This document shows, in pieces, positions 35,020 to 55,699 of a DNA stretch of 55,860 nucleotides. Numbering within the stretch: the first letter of the stretch is position 1; each line of letters begins with the position of its first letter. The notes under the pieces were generated by a model. The model saw only the letters and a program-made list of their open reading frames with translations, did not search any database and was not told where the DNA came from. The stretch is from positions 105,934 through 161,793 of the forward strand of contig SVRP01000005.1 in NCBI GenBank assembly GCA_015064735.1, written 5' to 3'. The position numbers and the translations under genes were made by a program. Source of the DNA: Oscillospiraceae bacterium (lineage in GTDB: Bacteria > Bacillota > Clostridia > Oscillospirales > CAG-272).

Positions 35020-36381
35020 ATGAACACCATTTATGACGTATGTGCAATAGAGCTTGCAAGAAAGCTCAATTCTTTTACAAAGGTATTCCCCTGCAGTAAA
35101 GGCGCCAACGAGATGATAACCTATCTCGTAAGCGAAAATACTCTTGGCGATTTTTTATGCACCGCAGGTGAATGCGGATTTATAAAGGTTTCCGAGGATA
35201 TAGACGAAAAGCATATCTTTTACACACTTGAGAGCAAGAGAGAGCGTATGTACGTTCTCTATCTTAAGTCTTGCGAGGAGCTGAAGCTCATATGGGAAAA
35301 CATTGAAAAACTCCCTGCCACCGATACCGACGGACAGAGTGAAGTCAAGGTCTTACAGCTTGGTATAGGAAACTACGGCAAGCACACCGACAATCCAATG
35401 GTTGGAATGGGATATATTATAAAACTCGCAAACTCTCATGCAATAATAGTTGACGGCGGATATGACACCGAGGGCTGTGCGGACAATCTGTTTGCCTCTC
35501 TTGAAAGGTTAGAAATTGCCAGAAATAAAGAAAGGTTCATCATCGATGCGTGGTACATCACTCACCTCGACGGAGACCACATAGGAATTCTGAAATCCTT
35601 TTTCTCTAAGTATTCCGACAATGTAGCAGTGGGCTCTTTCGTTCAGAATTTCCAGGTAGGAGACCCCGCCATAAACGAATACAACTACAAGCAAGTAGGC
35701 GACGATTATATCACTCTTATGGAAAGCGCTTGCCCCGATGCCAAGGTAATAACAGCACATCCCTCGTGCGTGTTCAACTATGCGGGCGCAAGTATAAGGA
35801 TACTCTACACCGCAGAAATGTATTACTCGCTCTTTTCAAGGCTCATGGACGGAAACGACGCAAGTCTTATATTTATGCTTGAGACCAACGGAAGGAAGAT
35901 GCTCTTTATGGGAGACGGTGGTGAGGTCAGCGCAAGATGTCTTTATTCGGCTTACGGAAAGGACACGCTGAAGTGCGACGTGCTTCAGGTTCCCCACCAC
36001 GGTCTTACAACGGGACATATGGTATTCAAGCGTCCTATGTCCGAGCACGCTTATCTTAACAGAATATACGAATACGCGTCCCCCGATTTTGCCGCTATGC
36101 CTATGGGAGAAACATTTAATCCATACAGAGATTGCTACGGAAACAATCAGCGAAAGTTTGTTTTGGAGAACTACCCACAGGACGGATATTTTATAGACAA
36201 GAGCCGTGTGGATATGGGATACGATGGCATAAACGTTATATGCTCTCCCAAGGACGGAGGCAAGGTACTCACCACTTATATGATGTCCTCGGACCGCGAA
36301 CCCATGGCTACTGTTTTTTCATTTGGCAAGGACGGTGTTTCGGTTCAATTCAACGATACTCTCTCCTCATTCCTTTCGTAA
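35020..36381 (+). CDS. ComEC-like metallo-beta-lactamase-fold hydrolase, paralogue 1
   Basis: A 453-residue soluble protein, no signal peptide or membrane segment. Residues ~1-125 are a domain shared in outline with the proteins at 45920 and 54143. Then comes an MBL fold: AIIVDGG, THLDGDH (182-187), MLFMGDGGE, and VLQVPHHG. The second His of HxHxDH is Asp here, as is common in ComEC-type domains. The final part AMPMGETFNPYRD and DMGYDGINVICSP is shared with paralogue 2. GGGAGG precedes the ATG, and the gene starts 19 bp after the permease. The substrate is unknown; a phosphodiester or similar is possible from the fold. It is not a DNA-uptake protein, since the ComEC channel is absent. Confidence 0.75.
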   Translation: MNTIYDVCAIELARKLNSFTKVFPCSKGANEMITYLVSENTLGDFLCTAGECGFIKVSEDIDEKHIFYTLESKRERMYVLYLKSCEELKLIWENIEKLPATDTDGQSEVKVLQLGIGNYGKHTDNPMVGMGYIIKLANSHAIIVDGGYDTEGCADNLFASLERLEIARNKERFIIDAWYITHLDGDHIGILKSFFSKYSDNVAVGSFVQNFQVGDPAINEYNYKQVGDDYITLMESACPDAKVITAHPSCVFNYAGASIRILYTAEMYYSLFSRLMDGNDASLIFMLETNGRKMLFMGDGGEVSARCLYSAYGKDTLKCDVLQVPHHGLTTGHMVFKRPMSEHAYLNRIYEYASPDFAAMPMGETFNPYRDCYGNNQRKFVLENYPQDGYFIDKSRVDMGYDGINVICSPKDGGKVLTTYMMSSDREPMATVFSFGKDGVSVQFNDTLSSFLS

Positions 36382-36401
36382 ACAATAATTATATTTTCCT
36401 G

Positions 36402-36430
36402 TTGCAAAGTCAGGCTTTTTGTGATATAAT
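36402..36430 (+). promoter_or_regulatory. Promoter of metY-metA
   Basis: TTGCAA (36402-36407), 17 bp, TATAAT (36425-36430). The start codon is only ~37 bp downstream, leaving no space for a SAM riboswitch or T-box. Confidence 0.8.
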
Positions 36431-36466
36431 AGATAAGATAAAAACAAATCCAAGGAGGACTGAAAA

Positions 36467-37756
36467 ATGTCGAATTACAAAATAGAAACAAAATGTGTGC
36501 AGGGCGGATATACTCCCGGTAACGGAGAGCCTCGCCAAATCCCGATAATTCAGAGCACAACCTTCAAGTATGCTTCAAGTGCCGAAATGGGCAAGCTCTT
36601 TGACCTTGAGGCTTCGGGATATTTTTATACAAGATTGCAAAACCCCACCAACGACAGCGTTGCGGCTAAGATATGCGACATGGAGGGCGGTACCGCGGCT
36701 ATGCTTACGTCGTCGGGTCAGGCAGCGAATTTCTTTGCGATATTCAACATTGCTTCCTGCGGAGACCACGTAGTTGCAAGCTCTACCATTTACGGTGGAA
36801 CCTTCAATCTGTTCTCGGTAACTCTTAAGAGAATGGGAATTGAGTTTACCTTCGTTTCTCCCGACTGTACCGACGAGGAGCTTAATGCCGCATTCAGGGA
36901 AAACACCAAGGCTGTCTTTGGCGAAACTATCGCTAACCCCGCTCTTACTGTTCTTGACATTGAGCGTTTTGCAAAGGCGGCTCATGACCACGGTGTTCCG
37001 CTTATTATTGACAATACCTTCGCAACTCCCGTAAACTGCCGTCCCTTTGAGTGGGGAGCCGATATAGTTACTCACTCCACCACCAAATACATGGACGGAC
37101 ACGGTGCGGCTGTAGGCGGATGTATCGTTGATTCCGGTAAGTTCGATTGGACAAAGTATCCCGACAAGTTCCCCGGACTTTGCACCCCCGATGAAAGCTA
37201 TCACGGTGTTACCTACACCGAGCGTTTCGGTCTTGAGGGAGCGTTTATTACAAAGGCAACCGCTCAGCTTATGAGAGACTTCGGCGCAATTCAGGCTCCT
37301 CAGAACGCATTTCTTCTCAATCTCGGACTTGAGAGCCTTCACGTAAGAATGGCAAGACATTGCGAAAACGGACTTGCCGTAGCTAAATTCTTAAAGAACG
37401 ATCCCCGCATTTCTTGGGTAACCTATCCCTCTCTTGAGGGCGACAAGTATTACGAGCTTGCGCAGAAGTACATGCCGAACGGAACCTGCGGAGTTGTAAG
37501 CTTCGGCGTTAAGGGCGGCAGAGCTATGGCTGAAAAGTTCATGGGCAACCTGAAAATCGCCGCAATTGAGACCCACGTTGCCGATGCGAGAACCTGCTGT
37601 CTCCATCCCGCAAGCGCAACTCACCGCCAGATGAACGAGGAAGAGCTTGTTGCATGCGGTATTTCGGGAGACCTCGTACGTCTTTCCTGCGGTATCGAAA
37701 ACAGCGACGATCTTATTGCAGACATTAAGCAGGCACTTGATGCCCTTGATAATTAA
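36467..37756 (+). CDS. metY: O-acetylhomoserine sulfhydrylase
   Basis: A 429-residue PLP enzyme of the Cys/Met metabolism family. [22 protein letters not shown], the PLP lysine in [12 protein letters not shown] (Lys207) and the C-terminal [27 protein letters not shown] are diagnostic of the MetY (O-acetylhomoserine aminocarboxypropyltransferase) branch. It makes homocysteine from O-acetylhomoserine and sulfide. AAGGAGG precedes the ATG. metA follows 23 bp later, giving a two-step pathway in one transcript. Confidence 0.95.
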
Positions 37757-37779
37757 ATTTCAGGAGTGTAACGGTAACT

Positions 37780-38697
37780 ATGCCGATAAAAATACCAAAT
37801 CTTTTGCCTGCCACGCAGGTACTGTTAAACGAAAATATTTTTGTAATGACCGAGACCCGCGCCATTACGCAGGATATCCGTCCTCTTAAGATACTCATGC
37901 TCAATCTTATGCCTCAGAAAATAACCACCGAGACACAGATAGCAAGACTTATAGGTAACACCCCCTTGCAGGTCGAGCTTGAGCTTTTGCAGACCGCCAC
38001 ACACAAATCCAAGCACACCTCCGCCGAGCACATGCTTGCCTTCTACAAGACCTTTGACGAGGTAAAGCATAAAAAATACGACGGCATGATAATCACGGGA
38101 GCCCCCGTTGAAAATCTCCCCTTTGAGGAAGTGGATTATTGGGATGAGCTCTGCGAGATAATGGAATGGAGCAAGACCCACGTTACAAGCACGTTTCATA
38201 TCTGCTGGGGCGCTCAGGCAGGTCTTTACTACCATTACGGAGTCAAAAAATACCCTCTTGAAAAGAAGCTATTTGGAGTTTTTGAGCACAAGCTCGACTA
38301 CAAGCAGTCTATCCTTTTCAGAGGCTTCGACGACACATTTGTTGTTCCCCATTCGAGACACACAACCTGCAAACGCGAGGATATAGAAGCTATTCCCGAA
38401 CTTAAGATACTTTCAAGCTCCGATGAAGCGGGTGTTTTCGTCTGCGCAACCGACAAGGGCAGACAGATATTCGTTACGGGTCATTCCGAATATGACGGCG
38501 ACACCCTAAAGAATGAATATCTTCGCGATAAGAATGCAGGACTTCCCATTGATCTTCCCAAGTACTATTTCCCGGACGATGACGATACAAAGGAGCCTAT
38601 CGTCAGATGGAGAAGCTGTGCAAATCTTCTCTACTCCAACTGGCTCAACTATTTCGTATATCAGTCTACGCCTTATAACATTGAGGATATAGAATAA
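37780..38697 (+). CDS. metAA: Homoserine O-acetyltransferase (MetA type)
   Basis: A 305-residue glutamine-amidotransferase-like enzyme. The nucleophile is Cys142 in [10 protein letters not shown], His sits in VPHSRHTT and the closing Glu/His in VTGHSEYD. Residue 111 is Glu ([15 protein letters not shown]), which in studied MetA enzymes gives acetyl-CoA instead of succinyl-CoA specificity (Gly there gives succinyl). The product would feed MetY directly. It is co-transcribed with metY. Confidence 0.93.
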
Positions 38698-38718
38698 ACT
38701 CTTCGGAGGAAAACATAA

Positions 38719-39996
38719 ATGAAGAAGCTGTTCTCCCTGCTTCTTGCCTTGATTTTATGCGCACTGTGCTTTGCATCGTGCGGCAAGGATAAGGTCGAGC
38801 AGGATGATAATTTTTACTACTACCGTCTTGAGGACAACACCTACGGAGTGTCCTTGAAAAACACAAAGCTTACCGACATAGTCTTTCCCGATTCCTTTAA
38901 CGGCGCACCCGTAACCAAGATCCTCTGCTCGGATTTTGTTTCATCCAAAGAAATTACCGTAACGATTCCCAACAGTGTAAGGATTATCGGCGAGAGTGCT
39001 TTTGCAGGACTTTGGGGACTTAGGAGCATCAAGATTCCCGCAAGCGTTACATCAATCGAAAAGTCCGCTTTTTCAGGATGCACGAATCTTGAAGCCGTTG
39101 TCTTTGAGGAAGGCAGTCAGCTTAAGATACTTTCGAATCACGCTTTCTCGAACTGCACTGCCCTTACGTCATTCCATATTCCCGACTCGGTTTCCACCCT
39201 GGGAGACAGAGCCTTTGCATTCTGTATAAATCTCCGTGAAATAACACTTCCCTCAAGTGCCGAAAGCATTGCCACGTGGATGTTCCACGGCTGCTCTGCT
39301 CTTGAATCGGTAACCGTCCCGGAGGGTACGGTCAATATCGGAGACCGCTCATTCCACGGATGTACGGCTCTTAAAACTGTTAATCTTTCACAGAGCGCAA
39401 CTCACATAGGAAATTACGCCTTCAGCGGATGCACGTCCCTCGAAACCGTAAGCTCTCCAAACGGAGTATCCTATATCGGAACAGAAGCCTTTTACAACTG
39501 CTCAAAGCTTACAGGACTTAAGATCTCGAACGATATCCAAACAATATCCAACGATGCCCTCAGAGGCTGCAGCAGTCTTGCTTTTAACGAATATGATACA
39601 GCCTTCTATCTCGGAAATGACAGCAACCCTTACGTGGTTCTCGTAAAAGCTAAGCCTCAGAATATCACCTCCTGCACCGTTCCCGACGGCACAAGGATCA
39701 TTTACAACGGGGCATTTGAATATTGCGAGTTTTTAACTACTGTTACACTTGGTAACTCTGTAACCCATATCAACAGATGCGCTTTCTACAACTGCGATGC
39801 GCTTACTTCAATAACGATACCTAAAACCCTGACAGAAATAGGCGAGTTTGCTTTTTACCGATGTACAAACGTATCCGATTTAAGATACGCGGGAACCGCC
39901 GATGAATGGCGAAATATTGCGTTTGGTGTCCAGTGGAATGAATATTCCTCGGCTTACACCGTTTATTGCTCCGACATAACACTGAATATCGGCTAA
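38719..39996 (+). CDS. BspA-like leucine-rich repeat lipoprotein
   Basis: A 425-residue secreted protein. The signal peptide MKKLFSLLLALILCALCFASC ends in a lipobox (CFAS-C). The mature part is a run of LRR_5 units with the pattern AFxxCxxLxxIxIPxSVxxIGxxAF, for example AFSGCTNLEAV, AFSNCTALTSFHIPDSV, SFHGCTALKTV, AFYNCDALTSITIPKTL. The C-terminal NVSDLRYAGTADEWRNIAFG closes the array as in other clostridial members. Such proteins bind host or microbial surfaces. It lies 21 bp after metA with GGAGG before the ATG, so it may be co-transcribed by read-through, though the functions are unrelated. Confidence 0.9.
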   Translation: MKKLFSLLLALILCALCFASCGKDKVEQDDNFYYYRLEDNTYGVSLKNTKLTDIVFPDSFNGAPVTKILCSDFVSSKEITVTIPNSVRIIGESAFAGLWGLRSIKIPASVTSIEKSAFSGCTNLEAVVFEEGSQLKILSNHAFSNCTALTSFHIPDSVSTLGDRAFAFCINLREITLPSSAESIATWMFHGCSALESVTVPEGTVNIGDRSFHGCTALKTVNLSQSATHIGNYAFSGCTSLETVSSPNGVSYIGTEAFYNCSKLTGLKISNDIQTISNDALRGCSSLAFNEYDTAFYLGNDSNPYVVLVKAKPQNITSCTVPDGTRIIYNGAFEYCEFLTTVTLGNSVTHINRCAFYNCDALTSITIPKTLTEIGEFAFYRCTNVSDLRYAGTADEWRNIAFGVQWNEYSSAYTVYCSDITLNIG

Positions 39997-40000
39997 CACA

Positions 40001-40043
40001 AAAACATACGGGCTGAGTCAATTTGACTCAGCCCGTATGTTTT
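40001..40043. terminator. Bidirectional terminator with 20-bp stem
   Basis: AAAACATACGGGCTGAGTCA pairs exactly with TGACTCAGCCCGTATGTTTT across a 3-nt loop, between two convergent genes. Confidence 0.9.
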
Positions 40044-40072
40044 ATTAGTAAAGGACAAGGTGGAGTTCGATA

Positions 40073-41299
40073 TTACTTATCTTCCTCAACACCGGTTTCA
40101 TCCTTATTAGCCTCTTCACAGGTCTTTTCGATCTTCTCATCAACCTTATCAAGAGTCTTCTTTGCAAAGTCCTTACCGCCAAGACCGAATGCGAGTGCAA
40201 AGGAAATAGCGATAGCGGAAATGGTTACGATAAACGCGGTGTTAACGATTACGGATGCGATCTCGAGCTGGCTCAGGATCATGAATCCTGCAACAGTAAA
40301 TACCGCTACCTTTACGATCTTCGCAAGACCTGCGTATGCGGGTCTGGACTTAAGAATAAGTGCCTCAAGGAAGTTAGCACCGATAAACGCAACGAGAAGC
40401 ACAACTGCTGCCTTGATAACAAGGGGAAGGTATGCTACCACTGCGGTTACAATCATTGTAAGGATGGAGAGGTTAAGAGCTTCGATACCCTGAGCCGCTA
40501 CAAAGATAATGATTATCGTTCTTACAATGTTTACTACGATCTTAGTTGCAGAGAAGTTAAACTGGGGAATTATCTTCTTTACTACGTTATCGAAGTTAGT
40601 AGCAATAAGTACGTTATAGAGGAATCCGCATGCAAGGCTTGCTACGAAAATACCTACGCTAACGACTACTGCCGCAAGAATTATCTTCGGAACAGCTCCG
40701 AAAATAGAGGATACTATTCCGATTGCGGGTGCGGAGATTGCTTCGATGTTAAGTACGCCAAGGGCAGCTACTATTGCAACGAGAATGATAACACCCATAA
40801 GGATTTTTACGAGTACGTCCGAAAGAAGAATTACCTTCTTTTCATCGTCAACATCTTTTCTCTTGATGAAAGAATCGATCTTTGTCTTCTTAAGAAGAAC
40901 AGAAACGATCTGACCGAGAATCTGCGCGATGAGAATACCAATGTAAATAAGTATTACTGCCGCAATGATATTGGGGATGTAATCGATGAATTTGGATACA
41001 AATCCGTTAATGGGGGACGAAACACTCGTAACACCGATAGCCTCGAGTGCGCTGGGGAGGAAGAGCAAGAATACTATAAGGTATACCAGCTTTCCTACGA
41101 ACTTCATTGAAGTTCCGAAGGTTCCTTCGTTAATTCCCCACTTCTCAAACTTCTTGTCAAGCTTTACAAGCTTAAGAAGCTTTACTACAAGCCAGCTTAC
41201 AAGCCAAGCCGCAAAGAAGCCCAATGCAAGGAACACAACGAATCTTACGAATCCGATAGACCAGATATCACGTATGACATCTAAAAAATCTTGAAACAT
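40073..41299 (-). CDS. Mechanosensitive-channel-like membrane protein (TM-helix repeats)
   Basis: A 408-residue protein with about nine membrane segments and several copies of the conserved TM-helix repeat seen in CmpX/MscS relatives: FIDYIPNIIAAVILIYIGILIAQILG, IFGAVPKIILAAVVVSVGIFVASLACG and VAYLPLVIKAAVVLLVAFIGANFLE. AFALAFGLGGKDFAKKTLDK at the C-terminus corresponds to the MscS pore end, but no cytoplasmic MscS beta domain follows; the tail is short and acidic. It is probably an osmotic or mechanical membrane component. AAGGAG precedes the ATG. It is monocistronic. Confidence 0.8.
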   Translation of the reverse strand: MFQDFLDVIRDIWSIGFVRFVVFLALGFFAAWLVSWLVVKLLKLVKLDKKFEKWGINEGTFGTSMKFVGKLVYLIVFLLFLPSALEAIGVTSVSSPINGFVSKFIDYIPNIIAAVILIYIGILIAQILGQIVSVLLKKTKIDSFIKRKDVDDEKKVILLSDVLVKILMGVIILVAIVAALGVLNIEAISAPAIGIVSSIFGAVPKIILAAVVVSVGIFVASLACGFLYNVLIATNFDNVVKKIIPQFNFSATKIVVNIVRTIIIIFVAAQGIEALNLSILTMIVTAVVAYLPLVIKAAVVLLVAFIGANFLEALILKSRPAYAGLAKIVKVAVFTVAGFMILSQLEIASVIVNTAFIVTISAIAISFALAFGLGGKDFAKKTLDKVDEKIEKTCEEANKDETGVEEDK

Positions 41300-41407
41300 A
41301 ATTTTTCTCCTTTATTTAAATTTTATTTTGGTCATTTCATTCTACCATAAATATCAATTATAAATCAACACTTTTCCCTAGATTTAACACTTTTTTAACA
41401 AAATAAC

Positions 41408-44371
41408 CTAGCTATCTATTCCAAATCTTACGAAAGCATATCCATCGTTGAATTTTTCGCATTTTCCGTTTTCCCATTTTTTCTCGAATGAGAACGTTTT
41501 GGGATTCACGGATAACGGCTCGGCTATTTCACCGTGATGGGGTCCCATAAGATTACGGTAGCTGTTGCAAAGTGTTACGGTCAGCTCATTTTCTCCCTCG
41601 CAAAGGAAGTCTTTAAGATCAATATCCTCCGAAAGCAAAAGCACTCCCACCTTTTTCCCGTTCACCGATATTTCCGCGGTTGCGTATCTTCCCGTAAGAC
41701 GAAGCCACGTTGTGTCTCCCTTTTTGTGAGTTACCGTTGTGGAGAAGGTTATCTCTCCCGCAAAGAAGGGATATCCGTCGGTTACGATATTACCTGCGTT
41801 TATATCCTTCCTTTGAGCTACGAGAGCCAAGCCCCCCTCCTTTGAATAACGAATTCCGTTATTTTCGCAAAAGGTAAAGCATGCGGGATCTGTATCTACG
41901 GCAAAATTGCCGCGGAGATATACGTTTTCTATTTCAGTGTCGAAAACCAAGCAATTACGCAATGACTCGGAAACTCCGCCGTAAAGAACGTAATATACGT
42001 AGTCGCTTTGATAATAATCAATATCCAGCTCAACGTTATTTGCCCCCTCCTTTACGTAGGGCGCGATATCCGTAACTCTAAAAGAACGGTCAATTGCAAA
42101 ATCATTCCCCATTTTTACCTTTTTGCCGTTTACTCTTATATACTCGCTAACTCTCGCAGTCTCGGATATAAGCTCCAGCTTGTTCGGAGTACATTTCAGT
42201 TCAAAGGGAAAAATCAAAGTAACCTTTCCGCAGTAGCGGTCATAAAGAAGCTCGTCTCTTATTCGCTCCATAGGACGCAATTCAGATGGCTCTGCGCCGT
42301 TAAGAGATACTCTTGCTCTGTCAAGAGTAATATAGTTTACAGGCAGGTCCTTCACCTTAAACGGCGAGTTCAGCTTGATAAATTTCTTGGGCTCACTTTC
42401 GACATAAGGAAGGAAATCGGGAGCCTCATATTCGCAAAGAACATACGACTCGCTTCCGAAAAGATCGATTATCGCCTCCACCCCGTCGGAGGTCTTTCTT
42501 CCTCTGATCGCGGATATATCAAGAGCTGCTATATCAAGTTTGCCGAGTCTTTCGCTTCCCTTGCTCTTTACGTTTATACCGTAAATATCCTTACCCGTAA
42601 GGTTAGTAATATATATAAGTCTGCCGTATTCGGTGCTTCTTACCATTACTCTAACGTCCGAAAGGGCTACGTTTTCCGGGTATTCAAGAATCACGGCCTG
42701 AGAGCCGAGAATTTCGGAAATGACATCCGCATCGGTAACGTCTCTGCAATTACCGAAAATATCAAGCTCTGCCAATCTACCGTCTATCCGCTTGGGCAAA
42801 TGATGCTTGTAAGTATAAACCTTTCCGCCGTTTTCCATAAACTGTGAAAGAAGCTCAACCGTCTCTTTATCCAGCGTATCGCAAGCCGGCAGAACCACCT
42901 TGTTATATTTGCAAAGGCCAATCCTTATGTAATTATCCTCAACAGACGCAAGATTCTTCATTATTTCTTCATTTCCAAAATGGTATCCTATTCCGTTTCC
43001 GGAAAGCAGATAGCAGAGAGCTTCAAAATCTCCGTCAAGCTCGGCAACCGATGTCTTCATCTCAATGCGCTTGAATTTCAGCCATGCGCTGTGAATAGGA
43101 TGTATAACCAGAGTGTCTGCCACCTCCTCGCCCATAGAAAGCATATATCCGAGGTTATTGAAATATTGGTTGAAATTCTTCATTTCCTTGCCCCAAAGAT
43201 TGTGCTCGGAATAGAAATTGGGATAGTCTCTCTTTCGCTCTCCTCTTATAGAATATGGCAGAAGGTGCTGACACGTTACGTTTACTCCGCTTGCATACTG
43301 AAGCTCGGTGATATGCTTAAGCTCTCTCGGGGAAACGTCCCAGCCGCAGCAACCGAACATTTCGGATATGGCTTTCTTTCTGCCGGTCTGGGCGCAGACA
43401 CTGCCGAGCTGCTTGTGAGCAAGGTCGGTCTGCAATTTTCTGCCGAGATAATCTATACCGGGAATATGCTCGTACAAATATTGAGGCATTATATCCCCAC
43501 AGCACATCATCTGTCCTCTAAGAGAATTTTCCTCAACGAAATGCCCCGTAATTCTTATTCCGTTATTTTCCGCCCAATCGTACATTCTCTTGGAAAAATT
43601 CTCGGTGAATTTTCTGTTGGTCATTTTGTGATAGTCGTATCGGAATTCCTCTGCTCCCTTGTAATCACAGAAAAGTGAGGGCAGAGCTTCCTTTACAGAA
43701 TATCCGTACTCGTCAAGGAACCACTCGTCCATTTTCTTTGAAAAGGGTGTTTTCCAACGGTAATACTGAGGCTCATCGGTGAAAAATCCCGTAAGTCCGC
43801 GACCGAAATCCTCGGGAAACTTTTTCTTATATTCACCGTGAGTGGCTTCAAGAAATTTATCGGTAACGTCGGCTCTCATGGTATCTACGTAGGAGCCGTC
43901 GGTACCCACGGTAACGTGAAGATATCTGCTTGCTCCGTCTACGACCGTTTCGGTAAGTCTCGGAATTCCGTTTCCGTCAAAATAATAGACGGCATACGTA
44001 TTTTCGACAATCTCGGGATATTTTTCGCAAAGCTCTCCCTCGACGAATACTGCGTGATTTTCGGGATCCTCAAGAAGCTTTCCTCCCGCAAATCCGCTGG
44101 GCCAGCCGTTTTCGTCATACGCCCATGCTTCAAGCCCGAGCCTTTCCGCTTCATCAATACAGGTCTTTATACAGTCGTACCATTCGTCGGACAGATATTC
44201 TGTTTCAAGTCCCGTTCTTGCATGCATGAAGAAGCCTCGGCAGCCCATATCCTTGATGTAATGCATCTGACGGATAAGCTCCTCGCCCTTAAGTCTGTCA
44301 TTCCAACACCAAAAAGGAATACTGCCGTATTCTATTGCGTGTTTTTTTATGTTCTCGGCAAATTTATTCAT
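41408..44371 (-). CDS. GH106-like alpha-L-rhamnosidase family glycosidase
   Basis: A 987-residue protein. The N-terminal part reads GSIPFWCWNDRLKGEELIRQMHYIKDMGCRGFFMHARTG, then AWAYDENGWPSGFAGGK and LTGFFTDEPQYYRW, the (alpha/beta)8 domain pattern of GH106-type enzymes. TGHFVEENSLRGQMMCCGDIMPQYLYEHIPGIDYLG carries probable catalytic Glu. The C-terminal ~400 residues are beta-rich with a galactose-binding-like module (FAGEITFSTTVTHKKGDTTWLRL). There is no signal peptide. GH106 enzymes remove rhamnose from rhamnogalacturonan. I take the ATG at 44371 (GGAGG 9 nt upstream) over a start 18 bp earlier. No terminator is visible downstream. Confidence 0.78.
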   Translation of the reverse strand: MNKFAENIKKHAIEYGSIPFWCWNDRLKGEELIRQMHYIKDMGCRGFFMHARTGLETEYLSDEWYDCIKTCIDEAERLGLEAWAYDENGWPSGFAGGKLLEDPENHAVFVEGELCEKYPEIVENTYAVYYFDGNGIPRLTETVVDGASRYLHVTVGTDGSYVDTMRADVTDKFLEATHGEYKKKFPEDFGRGLTGFFTDEPQYYRWKTPFSKKMDEWFLDEYGYSVKEALPSLFCDYKGAEEFRYDYHKMTNRKFTENFSKRMYDWAENNGIRITGHFVEENSLRGQMMCCGDIMPQYLYEHIPGIDYLGRKLQTDLAHKQLGSVCAQTGRKKAISEMFGCCGWDVSPRELKHITELQYASGVNVTCQHLLPYSIRGERKRDYPNFYSEHNLWGKEMKNFNQYFNNLGYMLSMGEEVADTLVIHPIHSAWLKFKRIEMKTSVAELDGDFEALCYLLSGNGIGYHFGNEEIMKNLASVEDNYIRIGLCKYNKVVLPACDTLDKETVELLSQFMENGGKVYTYKHHLPKRIDGRLAELDIFGNCRDVTDADVISEILGSQAVILEYPENVALSDVRVMVRSTEYGRLIYITNLTGKDIYGINVKSKGSERLGKLDIAALDISAIRGRKTSDGVEAIIDLFGSESYVLCEYEAPDFLPYVESEPKKFIKLNSPFKVKDLPVNYITLDRARVSLNGAEPSELRPMERIRDELLYDRYCGKVTLIFPFELKCTPNKLELISETARVSEYIRVNGKKVKMGNDFAIDRSFRVTDIAPYVKEGANNVELDIDYYQSDYVYYVLYGGVSESLRNCLVFDTEIENVYLRGNFAVDTDPACFTFCENNGIRYSKEGGLALVAQRKDINAGNIVTDGYPFFAGEITFSTTVTHKKGDTTWLRLTGRYATAEISVNGKKVGVLLLSEDIDLKDFLCEGENELTVTLCNSYRNLMGPHHGEIAEPLSVNPKTFSFEKKWENGKCEKFNDGYAFVRFGIDS

Positions 44372-45070: not shown

Positions 45071-45124
45071 TATTTGTTTGTTACGCAGAAAATCGAACAC
45101 ATGATCGAACATTACGGGGGTATT

Positions 45125-45814
45125 ATGTTGAACGAAAGACAAAATCGAATACTTGAAATAACAGAAAAAAGAAAACGCGTTTCTGTGGAATTTCTCGCAA
45201 AAACACTGTACGTCAGCGAAATGACAGTACGCAGAGACCTACAGAAAATGGACCGTGAGGGGCTTATCAAAAGATATCACGGCGGCGCTCTTGCCTGCGA
45301 GGACTATATTGATTATTCCTTTGATCTCCGTATGCGAATGAACGAAAAGGAAAAGAAAAAGTTAGCGGCAGAGGCTCAAAAGCATATCCGAGACGGTCAG
45401 ACTATATTTTTGCATTGCTCATCCACCTGCGCTTATATTATTCCATGTCTTAAAAATTACAAAAATATAACCGTCGTTACAAATTCCGTTCAGTTTCTCC
45501 TCATGCTCTCAAAAATGAATATACGCTGTATTCTTGCGGGCGGAGAATATTACGGCAGCGAAAGATGTCTCGTGGGTCGGGCAACAGAAAATTTTCTCCG
45601 AAGCATAAACACCGATATAGCCTTTGTTTCGGGCAGCGGGATCTCCGATGACGGAGCGGTAACAGACGGGGACGAGGCAACGGCGGAAATAACCAAGGTC
45701 GCTATAAAAAACACCTCTAAGCTTGTGCTGCTGTCGGACAGCTCCAAGCTCGGCTTTAAATACACCTACAATATATGCCACAAGGACGATGCCGACGCTA
45801 TTATAATCATCTGA
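45125..45814 (+). CDS. DeoR-family transcriptional regulator
   Basis: A 229-residue regulator. N-terminal HTH: ERQNRILEITEKRKRVSVEFLAKTLYVSEMTVRRDLQKMDREGLIKRYHGGAL, which is the DeoR signature. The C-terminal sugar-phosphate sensor has DGQTIFLHCSSTCAYIIPCL, ITVVTNSVQ, ILAGGEYYG, DIAFVSGSGISDDGAVTDGDEATAEI and LLSDSSKLG. Effectors of this family are phosphorylated sugars. The ATG at 45125 follows GGGGG; earlier in-frame starts lie before it. Metallohydrolase paralogue 2 lies 105 bp downstream with its own promoter, and may be a target. Confidence 0.92.
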   Translation: MLNERQNRILEITEKRKRVSVEFLAKTLYVSEMTVRRDLQKMDREGLIKRYHGGALACEDYIDYSFDLRMRMNEKEKKKLAAEAQKHIRDGQTIFLHCSSTCAYIIPCLKNYKNITVVTNSVQFLLMLSKMNIRCILAGGEYYGSERCLVGRATENFLRSINTDIAFVSGSGISDDGAVTDGDEATAEITKVAIKNTSKLVLLSDSSKLGFKYTYNICHKDDADAIIII

Positions 45815-45919: not shown

Positions 45920-47293
45920 ATGGAACTTCAAATTTTAACTCGCACTCCCGTGCTCAACAGCAGCACCTATTCGAAAATGACTATCCTTGAAAATTATACC
46001 GTTAAAGAGCATGCGGCACTCGTTGGCTTTTTGACCAATGCGGGATATGAACAGCTTTTCAAAAATTATGAAAAGAGCGTCATCACCTGCGTATATAAAA
46101 AGGATGAGGAAATAGTTACGGTTTGCCGTAACTCCGCAAAGTCCGAGGTAAGAGTTATGTGGGAGGATGCAAAATACAATTCTCTTGACACCATAACCGC
46201 TCCCGAGACGGTCGGCGACGGCGAGACCACTCTTTCACAGATAGGTGTCGGCGGATACGGTCATTGCACCGACGACCCCATGATAGGTCTTCATTACCTT
46301 ATAAAGAACTCCGACGGTAAGGCTATTATTCTTGATGGCGGTATATTCGAGGAAAATGCCGACGATATATACAAAGCACTTGAGAGCCACAATATCGCAA
46401 AGGACGAAAGCGGAAAATTCATTATCACCGCTTGGATATTTACCCACGCTCACGGCGACCATATAGGCGCGTTCAATCAGTTCTCTCACAAATACAATGA
46501 TAAGGCGACCGTTGAGTATATTATGTACAACTTTCCCGGCGACGGAAGAGTCGCTACGAGAGAAGCGAATTTTGACGCGTTTGAGAAGAACATCGACGAG
46601 CAGTTTCCCGAGGCAAAGCGCATAGTTCCCAGAATCGCGCAGATTTACTATTTCGGGAATATAAAGATAACTATCGCTTGCTCTCCCGACATGCTCTACA
46701 CCCCAACACGTGTTCTTCCCTACTTTAACGATACGAGCATATACTTTATCCTTGAGGCAGAGGGGGTTAAGACCCTGTTCCTCGGTGACGGCGGTGAAAT
46801 GTGCGCCGAAAAGACCCTTGAGTGCTTCCGCCCAACAACCTTGAAGAGCCACTTTGTTCAGATAACCCACCACGGTCTCTATACAAGCGCGTATAAGACC
46901 CCCTATACTGCCGACGAGGCAACTCTTCTCACCAGAGAAGAAAGGAACGCAAGAGAGGCTGAGAGACACGTTCACGAAAATCTTACCAAGCTTTACGAGA
47001 CCGCCGCTCCTTCTATTGGCTTGTGGCCTATGGGAGATACTCTCGGACATCCGAGAAACGGAAGAACAACCGTTATGAGAGACTGGTCCCGTACCTACGG
47101 TCAGGTCGCTCACTTTGTTGACATCGATTCTCCCGATTCGGGATATGACGGAGTAAACATAGTAAGAAAGGGCGATCTTATTACCTACACCATGTCCTCC
47201 GAGGATAAGCTCATGATAACCAAGTTCCTTCTCAAGGACGGTAAGGCAGAGCTTATTACCAACCAGACCTACGAAAGCTTTCTTGCTGAATAA
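45920..47293 (+). CDS. ComEC-like metallo-beta-lactamase-fold hydrolase, paralogue 2
   Basis: A 457-residue soluble protein, closest in layout to the one at 35020. Residues ~1-110 form the shared N-terminal domain (ENYTVKEHAALVGFLTNAGYE..., EVRVMWED). The MBL fold follows: GVGGYGHCTDDPMIGLHYLIKN, AIILDGG, THAHGDH (176-181) with a full HxHxDH set, FLGDGGE, and VQITHHG, then GLWPMGDTLGHPRN. The C-terminal DSGYDGVNIVRKGDLITYTMSSEDKLMITKF parallels paralogue 1. No signal peptide or transmembrane part. GGAGG precedes the ATG. The metal set suggests an active hydrolase; the substrate is unknown. It is monocistronic between a strong promoter and a strong terminator. Confidence 0.75.
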   Translation: MELQILTRTPVLNSSTYSKMTILENYTVKEHAALVGFLTNAGYEQLFKNYEKSVITCVYKKDEEIVTVCRNSAKSEVRVMWEDAKYNSLDTITAPETVGDGETTLSQIGVGGYGHCTDDPMIGLHYLIKNSDGKAIILDGGIFEENADDIYKALESHNIAKDESGKFIITAWIFTHAHGDHIGAFNQFSHKYNDKATVEYIMYNFPGDGRVATREANFDAFEKNIDEQFPEAKRIVPRIAQIYYFGNIKITIACSPDMLYTPTRVLPYFNDTSIYFILEAEGVKTLFLGDGGEMCAEKTLECFRPTTLKSHFVQITHHGLYTSAYKTPYTADEATLLTREERNAREAERHVHENLTKLYETAAPSIGLWPMGDTLGHPRNGRTTVMRDWSRTYGQVAHFVDIDSPDSGYDGVNIVRKGDLITYTMSSEDKLMITKFLLKDGKAELITNQTYESFLAE

Positions 47294-48922: not shown

Positions 48923-48951
48923 AGTATACCATATTTTTTTGAAAAAATCAA
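48923..48951 (-). promoter_or_regulatory. Promoter of the aldo-keto reductase operon
   Basis: On the minus strand TTGATT (48951-48946), 17 bp, TATACT (48928-48923). Confidence 0.75.
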
Positions 48952-48987
48952 ATATTTTTTATTGAACGCAATATTTCTGTCTACATC

Positions 48988-49016
48988 TTGAAAATTCCTT
49001 TTGAGTGTGGTATAAT
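48988..49016 (+). promoter_or_regulatory. Promoter of the NSS transporter gene
   Basis: TTGAAA (48988-48993), 17 bp, TATAAT (49011-49016). Confidence 0.8.
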
Positions 49017-49057
49017 GACCTTATAAATTAATATTTGTTATACTTTTGGAGGTCAGC

Positions 49058-50461: not shown

Positions 50462-50469
50462 GCATCCAA

Positions 50470-50508
50470 ACTAATGCTCAACAGAAGTTGAGCATTAGTT
50501 TTTTTTTC
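50470..50508 (+). terminator. Terminator after the NSS transporter gene
   Basis: Stem ACTAATGCTCAAC / GTTGAGCATTAGT with a 4-nt loop and nine T. Confidence 0.9.
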
Positions 50509-50513
50509 ATTTC

Positions 50514-50542
50514 TTGACATTTTTCTAAATTCGTTGTATAAT
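50514..50542 (+). promoter_or_regulatory. Promoter of the TauE/SafE gene
   Basis: TTGACA (50514-50519), 17 bp, TATAAT (50537-50542), a perfect consensus. Confidence 0.85.
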
Positions 50543-50595
50543 TGTTAAGGTGATAAGTCTTTTGAGTTAAAAACGCTTTCTTTTGTGGATAGAAA

Positions 50596-51375
50596 ATGAT
50601 AAAATTATTAGTTTGCCTTCTCGCGGGTCTCGGCGCAGGTCTCGGCACCGGCTTTGCAGGAATGAGCGCAGCAGCCGTAATTACGCCTATGCTCGTAACC
50701 TTTTTAGGTGTCCCGGCATACACAGCAGTAGGAATAGCCTTGGCTTCAGATGTTTTCGCAAGCTTGATTTCGGCATATACATATAAGAAAAAAGGCAATA
50801 TTGATATAAGAAACGGACTTCTTATGATGTCCACGGTGTTGTTATTCACCGCTGTCGGAAGCTTTGTATCAAGTCTTGTTCCAAACGGCACTATGGGAAA
50901 TTTTTCGGTTTTCGTTACACTCGCCGTAGGAATAAAATTTATTATAAAGCCTATTTTAACCACCAAAGAATCCATGCTCAGTGTATCTCCTAAAAGAAGA
51001 GCCATTGAGTCCTTGAGCTTTGGATGCTTAATAGGATTTATATGCGGATTTGTCGGAGCAGGCGGCGGTATTATGATGCTTATGATACTCACGTCAATCC
51101 TCGGATACGAGTTAAAAACAGCAGTGGGTACAAGCGTATTCATTATGTCGTTTACCGCTTTAACAGGCGCCGTATCGCATTTCATTATAGACGGTCCTCC
51201 CGATATTTGGATATTGATCATGTGCGTATTATTCACGCTTATTTTCGCAAGAATCGGCGCGCGGATCGCCAACAACGCATCCCCGATAACACTGAACAGA
51301 ATAACGGGTATCATTCTCGTCGTTCTCGCAATCGCCATTTTTTCGGCAAATGCAATTTTGTCCTCAAGAGGTTAA
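50596..51375 (+). CDS. TauE/SafE-family anion permease
   Basis: A 259-residue protein with eight membrane segments in two halves. The glycine-rich loops GLGAGLGTGFAGMSAAAVITPMLVTFLGVPAYTAVGIALASD and GCLIGFICGFVGAGGGIMMLMILTSILGYELKTAVGTSVF are the paired family signature. Members export sulfite, sulfonates or related anions. A role in sulfur balance next to metYA is speculative; the genes are 13 kb apart. The ribosome site before the ATG is weak, with a Shine-Dalgarno-like GGATAG. It is a single-gene unit. Confidence 0.88.
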   Translation: MIKLLVCLLAGLGAGLGTGFAGMSAAAVITPMLVTFLGVPAYTAVGIALASDVFASLISAYTYKKKGNIDIRNGLLMMSTVLLFTAVGSFVSSLVPNGTMGNFSVFVTLAVGIKFIIKPILTTKESMLSVSPKRRAIESLSFGCLIGFICGFVGAGGGIMMLMILTSILGYELKTAVGTSVFIMSFTALTGAVSHFIIDGPPDIWILIMCVLFTLIFARIGARIANNASPITLNRITGIILVVLAIAIFSANAILSSRG

Positions 51376-51391
51376 AGCCATAAATTACATA

Positions 51392-51419
51392 TTGAAATTC
51401 CCGTAAAGCTGTATATAAT
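51392..51419 (+). promoter_or_regulatory. Promoter of the DUF4177 gene
   Basis: TTGAAA (51392-51397), 16 bp, TATAAT (51414-51419). Confidence 0.7.
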
Positions 51420-51448
51420 AATGGTACAGTTTTTATAGGAGAAACAAT

Positions 51449-51652
51449 ATGCAATACGTCGTTTTACAGGTAATTCTTAAGGAAAAGCTTATTGGTACAG
51501 GTTCGGGCAATCTTACGGAGCTTGAAAAGGTTATAAATACTCAAGCCTCAAAGGGATATCGGCTGCATACCATTTCCACCGTTTCCTCAGGAAGTAAAGG
51601 TCTTATGCGGGGAGACAGAATACAGGCTACAATGGTTTTTGAAAAATTATAA
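51449..51652 (+). CDS. Small DUF4177-type protein
   Basis: A 67-residue protein, MQYVVLQVILKEKLIG followed by LTELEKVINTQASKGYRLHTIS and ATMVFEKL. The beta-alpha-beta arrangement with GYRLHTIS and a final ATMVFEK strand resembles DUF4177, a widespread small protein of unknown function. TAGGAG lies before the ATG, a promoter upstream and a terminator downstream, so it is a genuine independent gene. Confidence 0.8.
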   Translation: MQYVVLQVILKEKLIGTGSGNLTELEKVINTQASKGYRLHTISTVSSGSKGLMRGDRIQATMVFEKL

Positions 51653-51660
51653 TCCGAATA

Positions 51661-51696
51661 AAAATAAAACGGGTCGATCGACCCGTTTTATTTTTT
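51661..51696. terminator. Bidirectional terminator
   Basis: AAAATAAAACGGGTCGA and its complement TCGACCCGTTTTATTTT meet as a near-perfect palindrome between convergent genes. Confidence 0.9.
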
Positions 51697-51705
51697 ATGG
51701 AACGC

Positions 51706-53298
51706 CTAAATTTTTTCCATTTCTGTCGCTCCCTTTTTCCTAAGCCATACAAAAAGCAATATAGCCAAAGCAACGAACAAAACGCAGATACAAATGAAAT
51801 ATACCAAGGGACTCATAAATTTGTGTACCGCAAAGAAAAGTCCCACAGCTCCGCCGGCTAAGGCCATTCCGCCGAAGAGAGTAAGCGCTACGCTCATAGA
51901 CTGCTTTATGGGAATTATCTCGTTTGTCCAGTCGAAGCTGTGCTTTTTGAGATTTATGAAAAGACCGAATTCAGCCATAACAAGCTCAAAAGCAAGAACG
52001 GTAACTATCATAAGCATGGAAGATATGACAGAAAGTCTGAATACGGCAATAGCGCATACAAAAACTATTACCGTGGGGACGGATACGATTATCATGTGCA
52101 TGGAAAGCTTTGCGCGAAGTACCTGCCAACCATTCACGGGAATTACCTTAAGTATCCAGAGATTCTTTCCCTCAAGAGAAATTGACGGCGCAGTAATATC
52201 CAATGTAGGTACCATAAAACATATAATGACTGTCAGGACAAGCGCCACAAGCTCTGGTCTTTTGCCAAAGAGAGCGTCGAAAAGCATGCGAAGATCGTTT
52301 GCCTTAATTACAATGGCAACAGCCGCCACTATCAAAAAGAGCAATCCAAGTCCGCAGTTAAGCATATACGTGGCGCTTCCCGTAAATCTCTTGAATTCCT
52401 TACGTAAAAGGGCGGTATTCACGTTCGCACCCTTTGCCTTCTTTTCTCTATAAGCTTTTTTACGCTCACCCTTATTGACGGTAGCCAGCTTAATAAAGCT
52501 CTTGGAAAGAACAATATAAACCGTTAAGAAAAGTACGGCAACGATAGCTGTGAATATAAGCAGCGATACTACGCTGCCCTCTGCGGCGCGTCCCATATGG
52601 TAAAAGGGATAAAGAGCCTTTTTGAACGCGCTTGCAAGTCTGTCGGCATACGCAAGTATATCGGTAATAACGTTGAGCATTTTAGTATACAGAAACCAAT
52701 ACGCCGCCAATAGCGCAATGCTCAATATAACAGCCGCAAAGTTCTTTGATTTCATTCTTCCGCTGATTGCCGCAACTACAAATCCCAAAACACAGGACAG
52801 AACCAAAATAAAAAACGAAAGAACAACGGTAACAAGCAGGGTAAAAACAACTCCGAAAGCATCGGGATTTCCATGTATAAACCACGCAATAACAATGGGA
52901 ATCATTACGGCAAGCTCATAGATAAGCCCCCAGATATAGACACCGAACAAGCGAGCAAAAAGGATAATTCGGGGTTTTATGGGCATTGACAGCAAAAGGT
53001 CGTTATCCTTTGCTCGGTACAGTGAGGAATAGGTGCTGAAAACACTTCCGAAAACTCCGAAGATCATTGCAACAAGCGCTCCTATGGCAATATAAAGCCA
53101 ACCGAGTCCCACCTGCGCAAGGGGCTTACACATGCTTCCGAACAGGAAATAAAAGGATACACAGAGATATGCAAAAAAGAACACAAGCAAAACGGACATT
53201 ACTATAACGCCGCGCTTATCTCTTCTCGTACCGTCTCTCTTTTTACCGTAGCCCGAAAAAATTTCGGACATCTGCTTTTTCATCAGAGCCTTAATCAT
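51706..53298 (-). CDS. ABC transporter permease (ABC-2 type exporter)
   Basis: A 530-residue protein with about 12 hydrophobic helices. SVFSTYSSLYRAKDNDLLLSMPIKPRIILFARLFGVYIWGLIYE is typical of large ABC-2-type exporter permeases in Firmicutes, and ISLEGKNLWILKVIPVNGWQVLRAKL is a second copy of the same pattern, indicating an internal duplication. The ATG at 53298 lies 9 nt after GGAGG and overlaps the ATPase stop. The cargo is unknown; drugs, lantibiotics or cell-wall components are possible. Confidence 0.85.
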   Translation of the reverse strand: MIKALMKKQMSEIFSGYGKKRDGTRRDKRGVIVMSVLLVFFFAYLCVSFYFLFGSMCKPLAQVGLGWLYIAIGALVAMIFGVFGSVFSTYSSLYRAKDNDLLLSMPIKPRIILFARLFGVYIWGLIYELAVMIPIVIAWFIHGNPDAFGVVFTLLVTVVLSFFILVLSCVLGFVVAAISGRMKSKNFAAVILSIALLAAYWFLYTKMLNVITDILAYADRLASAFKKALYPFYHMGRAAEGSVVSLLIFTAIVAVLFLTVYIVLSKSFIKLATVNKGERKKAYREKKAKGANVNTALLRKEFKRFTGSATYMLNCGLGLLFLIVAAVAIVIKANDLRMLFDALFGKRPELVALVLTVIICFMVPTLDITAPSISLEGKNLWILKVIPVNGWQVLRAKLSMHMIIVSVPTVIVFVCAIAVFRLSVISSMLMIVTVLAFELVMAEFGLFINLKKHSFDWTNEIIPIKQSMSVALTLFGGMALAGGAVGLFFAVHKFMSPLVYFICICVLFVALAILLFVWLRKKGATEMEKI

Positions 53299-54007
53299 CG
53301 CTCTCATCCTCCAGCTCAAGGAATACACTCTCAAGAGAGGTGTCGCCCTTGACCTCGTCCATGGTTCCCGACACAATAAGCTTTCCGTTCTTTATTATAG
53401 CGACCTTATCGCAAAGCTTCTCAGCGACCTCAAGAACGTGAGTCGAGAAAAATATTGCTCCGCCGCCCGCACACATTTCTCTCATAAAGAGCTTTAACGT
53501 ATGGCTTGCCTTAGGATCAAGTCCCACGAACGGTTCGTCCATGATTATGAGCTTCGGGTCGTGTATCAGTGCGGAAATGATAGCAAGCTTCTGCTTCATA
53601 CCGTGAGAGTACGAACCCACAGACTGTCCAAGGTCTTTCTTTATTCCAAGCATTTCGGAATACTTCTCTATCCTTTCTGCTCTCTCTGATTCGCCCACAC
53701 CGTATACGTCCGCTATAAAATTCAAGAACTGTATACCCGTCATAAACTCGTAAAGCTCGGGATTATCGGGAATGTACGCTATCTTGGATTTGCACAAAAG
53801 AGGGTCCTTGGTTATGGAGACTCCGTCTATAAATATCTCTCCCCCATCAAACTGCAAAATGCCGCAACATGCCTTTATAGTTGTAGTCTTTCCCGCACCG
53901 TTATGTCCTATAAAGCCGTATATTTCACCGGGCTTTATATGCAAGGTCAGGTCATCTACCGCCTTTTTATCTCCGTAGGTTTTTGTAAGTTTATTGATTT
54001 TGAGCAT
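53291..54007 (-). CDS. ABC transporter ATP-binding protein
   Basis: A 238-residue ATPase. Walker A GHNGAGKTTT, Q-loop YIPDNPELYEFMT, signature SYSHGMKQKLAI, Walker B LIIMDEPFVGLD and H-loop FFSTHVLE are all intact. Note SHGMKQ in the signature, a common variant of SGGMKQ. The start at 54007 follows GGAGG by 8 nt. It energises the downstream permease, with which it overlaps by 8 bp. Confidence 0.95.
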   Translation of the reverse strand: MLKINKLTKTYGDKKAVDDLTLHIKPGEIYGFIGHNGAGKTTTIKACCGILQFDGGEIFIDGVSITKDPLLCKSKIAYIPDNPELYEFMTGIQFLNFIADVYGVGESERAERIEKYSEMLGIKKDLGQSVGSYSHGMKQKLAIISALIHDPKLIIMDEPFVGLDPKASHTLKLFMREMCAGGGAIFFSTHVLEVAEKLCDKVAIIKNGKLIVSGTMDEVKGDTSLESVFLELEDESDD

Positions 54008-54037
54008 AATAATATCCTCCAAAAAGATTCTGTTCTA

Positions 54038-54066
54038 ATGATACCACAATATGCAAAAAAAGTCAA
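54038..54066 (-). promoter_or_regulatory. Promoter of the ABC exporter operon
   Basis: On the minus strand TTGACT (54066-54061), 17 bp, TATCAT (54043-54038). Confidence 0.75.
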
Positions 54067-54084
54067 TAGAATAATAGTTTACTC

Positions 54085-54113
54085 TTGATATTTAAGATTT
54101 TTCATGATATAAT
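54085..54113 (+). promoter_or_regulatory. Promoter of MBL paralogue 3
   Basis: TTGATA (54085-54090), 17 bp, TATAAT (54108-54113). Confidence 0.8.
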
Positions 54114-54142
54114 GAGCAAAAAAATCTTTAAGGAGAAATACC

Positions 54143-55699
54143 ATGAATAACATTCCGATTTTTTGTGGGCTCGAAACCGCAGAAACACAGGCTAACAAAA
54201 ATTCAAGAGTGCTTACTGCGTCGGGAGCGAGCCTTCAAAGCTTTCAGAACTATTGCAAGGAGCTTTCGGTTATCGGATTTCAAAAACAGGAAAATTACTC
54301 AGAGGGTGATCATTACTACGCTTCGTTCTCCGGAAAGGACAACTGTGTTTTCGTAAATTATTTTGATTCCATAGGTGAGATTTTTGCAACCGAGGAAACC
54401 AACTGCGCTTATTTCTCATTTAAGGATAACTCAGAAACAGGCTTTTCCGTCTCCGCTCAGATAACGCAAATAGACCTTGTGGACTTCGGAATGTCCTATG
54501 CTATAAGACTTACCGACGGCAGATTCATAATCATTGACGGCGGTCGTGAATTTGAGGAGGATGCCGCTAAGCTCTGGAAGTGCATAAGTGAGGGTACTCC
54601 CAATGGAATGACTCCCACGGTGGCTTTATGGATACTTACACATCCTCATAGCGACCACTATCACGGTGCATTTACCTTTATAGAAAAGTATTTGAACTCG
54701 GTCAAAATTCAGAAATTCCTGCTCAACTTTCCCGAGCATGACGATTTTGAGCACTACCCTCAGCTTCAGAGCAAAGATTTCCGTTTTGAGGATTCCTCGG
54801 GATACACCAACATTCCCCGTATGTTCAGGGCAATAGAAAAAACAGACGCTAAGGTTTTCATGGCGCACACGGGACAAAAGTACCGAGTCGGCGGCGCAAG
54901 TATCAAAATTCTTAGTTGCATGGATGACACAATTCATATAAGCGACAGCATAAACGCATCCTCTATCGTTTTTCGCATGGAGCTTGCGGGACAGAGCATC
55001 CTCTGGGGTACAGACGGAAGCTTCAGCACAAGCAATCTTGCCGAGCGTTATGGAGAGACTCTGAAATCCGATATTCTTCAGATACCTCACCACGGCTTCA
55101 GCAGCGGCACTGTTGAAGGCGAAATAACAGCATACAGACACATTCGTCCCTCGGTCTGCTTTTTACCCGTATCGGATTTCAATGCTTATTACGTATTCAG
55201 CTCCTTTAAAAAAGGGACAGAATTTCTTATGAAGCACGCTGACGTTGACGATATAATTTCGGGCACGGGTCAGCGCACCGTAACACTGCCCTATATTCCC
55301 GATGCCTACAGAAAGCGGGAGTACAAGGAAAAATACGAAAAGGGGCAAAGAAGCTCGGGAGCGCATACGTGGTTCTTCACCGACCTTTCAACGGCATGCG
55401 AGGAGGACTTCGTGTTTACCGTCCTTAACACGGTTACCAACCCCGCCACTGTTTGGATAGAACTATTTTTTGAAGACTATCACGATAATATAAGACATAT
55501 AAAAATCACAGTGAAAAGCTGCGCTATGAAAAAATTCTCAATTATAGGCGACGAGGTAGACCCGGATGCCGTATTCTTCAACTGGATGTCCTTAAAGGAA
55601 AAGGGTATTCCCGAGAATACGACCTTTGCCGTAAGATTTATTTCGGATATTCCCGTAGTTATCTCGCACCAAAGGCATCAGGCGGCTTATCATGATTAA
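54143..55699 (+). CDS. ComEC-like metallo-beta-lactamase-fold protein, paralogue 3, with ASRT-like C-terminal domain
   Basis: A 518-residue soluble protein. Residues ~1-105 correspond to the N-terminal domain of the two other paralogues. The MBL core is FIIIDGG, THPHSDH (167-172), GTDGS in place of GDGGE, and LQIPHHG. Residues ~408-518 are extra: HTWFFTD, EEDFVFTVLN, TVWIELFFED, IKITVKS, GIPENTTFAVRFISDIPVVISHQR. That order of strands resembles the ASRT family (Anabaena sensory rhodopsin transducer, a small-molecule-binding beta-sandwich): LN, then a strand ending in ED, then TV, then IP-T-FA, then SD-PVV-H-R. AAGGAG precedes the ATG. It is monocistronic and divergent from the ABC exporter. 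The substrate is unknown. Confidence 0.72.
   Translation: MNNIPIFCGLETAETQANKNSRVLTASGASLQSFQNYCKELSVIGFQKQENYSEGDHYYASFSGKDNCVFVNYFDSIGEIFATEETNCAYFSFKDNSETGFSVSAQITQIDLVDFGMSYAIRLTDGRFIIIDGGREFEEDAAKLWKCISEGTPNGMTPTVALWILTHPHSDHYHGAFTFIEKYLNSVKIQKFLLNFPEHDDFEHYPQLQSKDFRFEDSSGYTNIPRMFRAIEKTDAKVFMAHTGQKYRVGGASIKILSCMDDTIHISDSINASSIVFRMELAGQSILWGTDGSFSTSNLAERYGETLKSDILQIPHHGFSSGTVEGEITAYRHIRPSVCFLPVSDFNAYYVFSSFKKGTEFLMKHADVDDIISGTGQRTVTLPYIPDAYRKREYKEKYEKGQRSSGAHTWFFTDLSTACEEDFVFTVLNTVTNPATVWIELFFEDYHDNIRHIKITVKSCAMKKFSIIGDEVDPDAVFFNWMSLKEKGIPENTTFAVRFISDIPVVISHQRHQAAYHD

Follow-up and report, generated by a model that had tools for sequence, protein, structure and literature searches.

A 55,860-base stretch of an Oscillospiraceae bacterium genome (the window, which forms the end of contig C7 in an assembly of 2.11 Mb and 31 contigs) carries on its forward strand three complete open reading frames (ORFs) coding for proteins with a metallo-beta-lactamase (MBL) core: P0001 (35020..36381, 453 aa), P0002 (45920..47293, 457 aa) and P0003 (54143..55699, 518 aa). 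Do these highly diverged genes form one family, and on what would its members act? An earlier note had described them as soluble ComEC-like paralogues of a lineage-expanded family, each acting on a distinct small molecule and not in competence; its observation is confirmed and its interpretation partly supported. We found by sequence comparison that P0001, P0002 and P0003 belong to one family, which has multiplied within its genus. We tentatively propose that its members are two-metal hydrolases directed at glycans, acting on sugar polymers or their fragments and not in DNA uptake.

One family built of two domains

BLAST aligned P0001 with P0002 over 448 aa (32% identity, E = 1e-61) and P0002 with P0003 over 229 aa of the core (29% identity, E = 9e-17), the latter alignment stopping short of the N-terminal domain (N-domain). 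Pfam Lactamase_B passed its cut-off in P0002 and P0003 and fell slightly below it in P0001. The N-domains lie at 35080..35367 in P0001, 45953..46249 in P0002 and 54179..54478 in P0003, all on the + strand. A direct profile-profile comparison of the N-domains of the two clades concerned was weak (E = 0.0003, probability 39%), whereas an independent profile drawn from 91 relatives, which left out the window genes, the P0001/P0002 clade and the P0003 clade, matched all three window N-termini (P0002, 46.1 bits; P0003, 44.5 bits; P0001, 23.1 bits), and this bridge makes the shared domain clear. The claim of a shared N-terminal domain therefore holds, except that its length is nearer 85 than the 110 residues first given. 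Profiles A2, A7 and A10 contain sequences on which they were tested: A7 recovered the N-domain of P0001 from its own genome (E = 8.8e-17, profile containing P0001), a search of the same kind recovered that of P0003 (E = 6.8e-28, profile containing P0003), and 144 of 159 members matched in profile searches that included the sequences scored. The P0002 N-domain was modelled as strand-strand-helix-four strands (predicted local distance difference test, pLDDT, 85.4), and the predicted order is the same in P0003, the other protein modelled, so that structure prediction, proposed as a check, gave agreeing N-terminal folds. No Pfam or NCBIfam model passed its cut-off for the N-domain or for its pairing with an MBL core, in agreement with the view that the combination is uncharacterized, and in profile searches the three genes did not fall into separate characterized families. 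The best sequence match of the N-domain to solved chains had E = 0.42. Within its own genome the N-domain was not found outside MBL proteins, 13 of 13 matches (E ≤ 0.1) preceding an in-frame MBL core.

The core motifs had also been read correctly. DGG and HHG occur in all three proteins, and the metal motif is H-x-H-x-D-H in P0002 (H176-A-H-G-D-H181, 46445..46462, +) and P0003 (H167-P-H-S-D-H172, 54641..54658, +) and H-x-D-x-D-H, the ComEC-nuclease type, in P0001 (H182-L-D-G-D-H187, 35563..35580, +). As expected of the MBL superfamily, each combines an MBL fold with H-x-[HD]-x-D-H and a later His ligand. HHG is present in 135 of 146 members; the idea that the other 11 might be inactive was dropped, as eight of them, all from the own genome, retain both histidines and replace the Gly (HHA or HHF). 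Five own-genome members have HHA: four tandem lipoproteins on contig C3 (L062 = G000:C3:1-18000, 2564-10985) and one on C24 (L059:8419-9879).

In-frame stops and a purine-rich ribosome-binding site lie directly 5' of the ATG of each window gene, which rules out a signal peptide hidden by a wrong start, and a simple hydropathy rule detected a hydrophobic N-terminus in none of the three proteins, as the earlier note had it. Their GC content (0.45-0.47) is that of the window (0.45). As far as sequence and structure prediction allow, the family, its two-domain unit, its core fold and its expansion, described below, are established.

Expansion within the genus and kinds of member

In the own genome, a three-gene profile gave 20 matches at E ≤ 0.01, corresponding to about 18 genes because two matches are each the second piece of a gene; the N-domain gave 13 copies (12 at E = 1e-6). 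Of 30 genomes in the genus, counting the own one, 23 carry 1-18 copies, 172 in total at E = 1e-6, and seven carry none; elsewhere in the class, 7 of 146 other genomes sampled at a completeness of at least 85 carry 1-3 copies each. The copies being far more numerous in the genus, the lineage expansion is borne out, with 13 copies in this genome instead of three. All genome counts rest on metagenome-assembled genomes (MAGs) of 55-98% completeness. The whole profile matched 22 of 58 other genomes at E ≤ 1e-30; a scan of genome contigs with P0002 alone found no relative. The carrier genomes of the genus measure about 1.1-2.5 Mb, and so many copies, up to 18, in so little DNA suggest a major role in feeding. 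Among the fetched loci, close relatives of P0003 (48-50% identity) occur in 3 of 29 congeners, and the closest relatives of P0001 or P0002 share 27-36% identity. A named collection, the best 80 of 98 relatives, amounts to 77 loci with 106 family ORFs, all from Clostridia-type MAGs (Clostridia, Oscillospiraceae, Lachnospiraceae, Clostridiales, Ruminococcus); a herbivore host (deer, sheep, goat, cattle, buffalo or horse) is given in 50 of the 77 record titles and no host in the other 27. Four proteins encoded at loci of the genomes compared have identical counterparts in named MAGs, and three of the four link the genus of the window to records labelled Oscillospiraceae or Clostridia. A tblastn search of 50,697 phage records (plasmids were not part of it) found no match to P0003 at E = 1e-5; a phage origin was rejected on this absence, which bears on mobility only.

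The label "soluble" does not extend to the family. A hydropathy rule applied to 158 member ORFs, 149 of them distinct in sequence, labelled 78 as secreted, 76 as cytosolic and 4 as unclear. In a tree of 146 distinct rows built by a quick method, P0001 and P0002 fall into an eight-member clade (support 95) whose remaining six members all look secreted by a regular expression. Adjacent same-strand pairs, counted without four loci judged to be duplicates (L033, L048, L083 and L103), number 30, of which 19 are secreted-secreted, 9 mixed and 2 cytosolic. At one locus (L072:5461-16761), six tandem members of 580-588 aa, lipoprotein-like or bearing a signal peptide, stand behind a GDPD gene (4588-5424). 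An extension of about 140 residues with a conserved E-I-L-V-G motif precedes the N-domain at this locus (L072:7503-7925) and in 33 other members, the N-domain of extension-bearing members beginning at residue 150-230; a GH67-N-like match of the extension occurred in just 1 of 25 members (E = 0.011). Two lipoprotein copies of the own genome (L058:5750-7585 on C24 and L060:6877-8703 on C26) are equal at 551 of 609 positions without gaps and, judging from these sequences, are probably a recent duplication.

Candidate substrates and gene settings

P0003 ends in an ASRT-type domain (residues 397-517, 55331..55693, +) in which PF07100 matches residues 426-512 (E = 3.5e-6, 27.4 bits for a cut-off of 25), and all 36 ASRT-bearing rows of the tree fall into a single clade with a Shimodaira-Hasegawa-like approximate likelihood ratio test (SH-aLRT) support of 99. 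Part of one study argues that ASRT-like domains bind sugars (PMC2739507). A Pfam scan of 23 further, hand-chosen members revealed a non-MBL domain over cut-off in four: RicinB_lectin_2 (L130), CBM_4_9 (L120), F5_F8_type_C (L047) and Glug (L087). In other proteins, domains of the first three kinds are carbohydrate binders. Fusion partners with a recognizable identity are thus mostly carbohydrate-binding, which does not suit the proposed small-molecule substrates.

Co-directional neighbours of the relatives include glycoside hydrolase (GH) and esterase genes: GH106 with melibiase-like (L079), GH106 (L082), rhamnosidase-6H (L110), DUF4832/GH42 (L076), GH20 (after L057), GDPD (L072), GDSL lipase (L073) and an esterase (L092). 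When 71 near and 71 far neighbours were compared in the Pfam families listed (25 of 71 and 25 of 65), at least 6 glycoside-hydrolase-family proteins were near and at most 2 far, an excess that we take as a hint and not as a result; a seventh near protein, L110, came from scans of single neighbours. The loci L082 (396-10550) and L079 are near copies in which family genes, 93% identical between the two, are interleaved with genes of GH106-like and melibiase-like type, and the GH106 gene shares a few bases with the next family gene.

We lean towards glycan-directed hydrolases because carbohydrate-binding fusions recur, many members look secreted, the nearest non-nuclease relative appears to be a glycan phosphoesterase (see below) and the neighbours are suggestive. 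In such enzymes, a small N-terminal domain (two strands, helix, four strands) would precede a ComEC/Pce-type MBL core in which two metals, bound by H-x-H/D-x-D-H and by an Asp and a His further on, would activate water for attack on an ester of a sugar polymer or oligomer. The bond cut would most likely be that of a phosphodiester or phosphoester substituent, or else an acyl ester. Secreted copies and lipoproteins, frequently arranged in tandem, would act outside the cell, and cytosolic copies, including the three of the window, would finish imported fragments; P0001 would be co-produced with an AraC-family regulator and a transporter of the CitMHS (anion) type, P0002 may respond to a regulator of the DeoR family, whose members usually sense sugar phosphates, and the ASRT domain of P0003 would bind its sugar.

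Several observations weigh against glycan-directed action. Four of the six near glycoside-hydrolase proteins come from the near-copy loci L079 and L082, AraC regulators are as frequent near (4) as far (4), and the two sets are unmatched, near genes being same-strand only and far genes drawn from both strands of a sample of 119. Genomes of this sort commonly carry carbohydrate genes. Single scans of 20 neighbours gave no Pfam match for 9 and non-glycan families for 4 (FTHFS and MgsA among them), while the solute-binding match at L094 stayed below cut-off. In the 36 ASRT-type loci plus the window, no neighbour family occurred in more than 5, and that one was a set of antisense ORFs. In three of the nine mixed pairs, a gene is truncated at the locus edge or has an unsure start. 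The lipoprotein extension gave no convincing Pfam or PDB match, with nothing below E = 0.0059 among solved chains. Non-MBL domains over cut-off were absent from 19 of the 23 scanned members and carbohydrate-binding ones from 20, and the best fold match of the model is a nuclease, activity being assigned by prediction. The weaker neighbour counts and the intact metal site of the own-genome copies pull in opposite directions on this reading.

The window genes stand in differing settings, as had been proposed: an AraC operon for P0001, a DeoR gene upstream of P0002, and an ASRT domain without conserved neighbour for P0003. The AraC-family gene (33024..33833, +; Pfam HTH_18, 4.7e-18; AraC_binding, 1.5e-7) opens a tight operon in which the CitMHS-type transporter gene (33846..35000, +; CitMHS, 6.2e-26) follows after 12 bp and P0001, the last gene, after a further 19 bp. 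A sigma-70-type promoter-like site matching the consensus at 12 of 12 positions (TTGACA-17-TATAAT, 32980..33008, +) precedes the AraC gene. Between P0001 and the Met genes lies another site (36402..36430, +; 10 of 12, with a TG preceding the second hexamer), which suggests that the operon ends at P0001; 11 promoter-like sites were found in 32800-37900 for 8.4 expected. The DeoR-family gene (45074..45814, +; DeoRC, 1.9e-42) ends 105 bp upstream of P0002. These differing regulators, the adjoining transporter and the divergence of the three genes would suit soluble enzymes that each have a small-molecule substrate of their own (a lactone, for instance, or a phosphodiester), and lactonases do figure among MBL-fold enzymes (PMC7785958); with about half of the family secreted-looking, including all six further members of the clade of P0001 and P0002, and with carbohydrate-binding fusions, we hold this to be unlikely. 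Glycan or aryl sulfatases of MBL fold are less likely again, their fold match lying far below those of ComEC and Pce, level with many nucleases, and the promoter-like site separating P0001 from the Met genes.

The stretch also contains a GH43 gene at 30689, a GH106-like gene at 41408 (minus strand) and a lipoprotein-like ORF (38719-39996) with, by eye, leucine-rich repeats of BspA appearance. An Rfam scan at gathering score gave three tRNAs (26921-27198, minus strand) and nothing else.

It is possible, if somewhat more speculative than glycan action itself, that the family represents a carbohydrate-active class of metalloenzyme that is new: Pce-like MBL (phospho)esterases whose N-terminal domain is undescribed, which reach 18 copies per genome in a gut clostridial genus not yet cultured, work in pairs outside and inside the cell and gained sugar-binding domains several times independently. 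A literature search of limited breadth turned up no described MBL glycan-esterase family of such kind, and to our knowledge MBL enzymes are hardly represented in carbohydrate degradation. Action on glycans, if true, would add a metal-dependent class of esterases or phosphoesterases to that process. Being compact and free of signal peptides, the proteins of the three window genes lend themselves to a first assay.

Relation to known MBL systems

The MBL core of P0003 (residues 100-387, 54440..55303, +) has ComEC and Pce as its nearest solved folds. Among 1000 solved chains compared with the P0003 model, the C-terminal beta-lactamase-like nuclease domain of ComEC (9ic4, 9vc6) ranked best and RNase J third in kind. 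The chief rival to glycan-directed action is accordingly a family of nucleases resembling these two, whose secreted copies would degrade environmental DNA or RNA for food and whose cytosolic copies would act on nucleic acid or nucleotides. P0001 retains the H-x-D-x-D-H motif of ComEC, and its top PADLOC matches were LmuA (48.0 bits) and an MBL protein associated with reverse transcriptase (RT) (37.6 bits), both scored without a model cut-off and both of which we take to be nuclease-type defence proteins. We nevertheless consider nucleases doubtful: the Ser that follows HHG in ComEC is replaced in 132 of 135 members, mostly by F, Y or L, leaving 3 that keep it, and no nucleic-acid-binding domain passed its cut-off in the 23 members scanned, compared with carbohydrate-binding domains in three. 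Loss of this Ser (S728) slows the ComEC nuclease about 3-fold, according to a section of PMC12455585.

Unlike ComEC, the family proteins have an N-domain of their own, and the channel and OB parts of ComEC are unmatched in them. The ComEC model TIGR00361 matched the MBL portion only, at 16.6 bits in P0001 and 36.9 in P0003 for a cut-off of 190, with P0002 unlisted; competence was rejected on this ground, as the earlier note had suggested from the missing channel domain and DNA-uptake partner. Outside its MBL domain, this model matched a different gene on contig C26 weakly.

Weak matches to LmuA, Avs1a and the RT-associated MBL protein raise the idea of anti-phage effectors. These systems share the same MBL core, but the profile match is weak (NCBIfam Avs1a, 28.1 and 29.4 bits for a cut-off of 420); by eye, with no profile search for partners, no partner gene (LmuB, STAND ATPase or reverse transcriptase) was noticed among the translated ORFs of 29000-55860, and about half of the family looks secreted. 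A defence role is thus very improbable.

The N-domain, compared with 998 solved chains, resembled DUF1795, DcrB, PsbP and BamC-type folds (6xrf, 6e8a, 1tu1, 2xb3, 2laf), presumably one group, at 4-11% identity in the ten best rows. We regard this as resemblance only, because scores of 7.3-7.7 are reached by unrelated folds too (spermine synthase, RnlA, adaptin appendage).

The teichoic-acid phosphorylcholine esterases Pce and CbpE (2bib, 1wra, 12qj) are similar to the family by fold and by profile, at 13% identity, and modelling points to Pce, a modular glycan phosphoesterase, as the nearest non-nuclease relative. The N-domain is not common to this alignment, which covers the MBL core alone (model residues 100-387). 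Solo forms of ASRT and ASRAH proteins occur in sugar-metabolism neighbourhoods, according to part of PMC2739507, in whose main text the word "lactamase" is absent; P0003, with a C-terminus over the PF07100 cut-off, fuses ASRT to an MBL enzyme.
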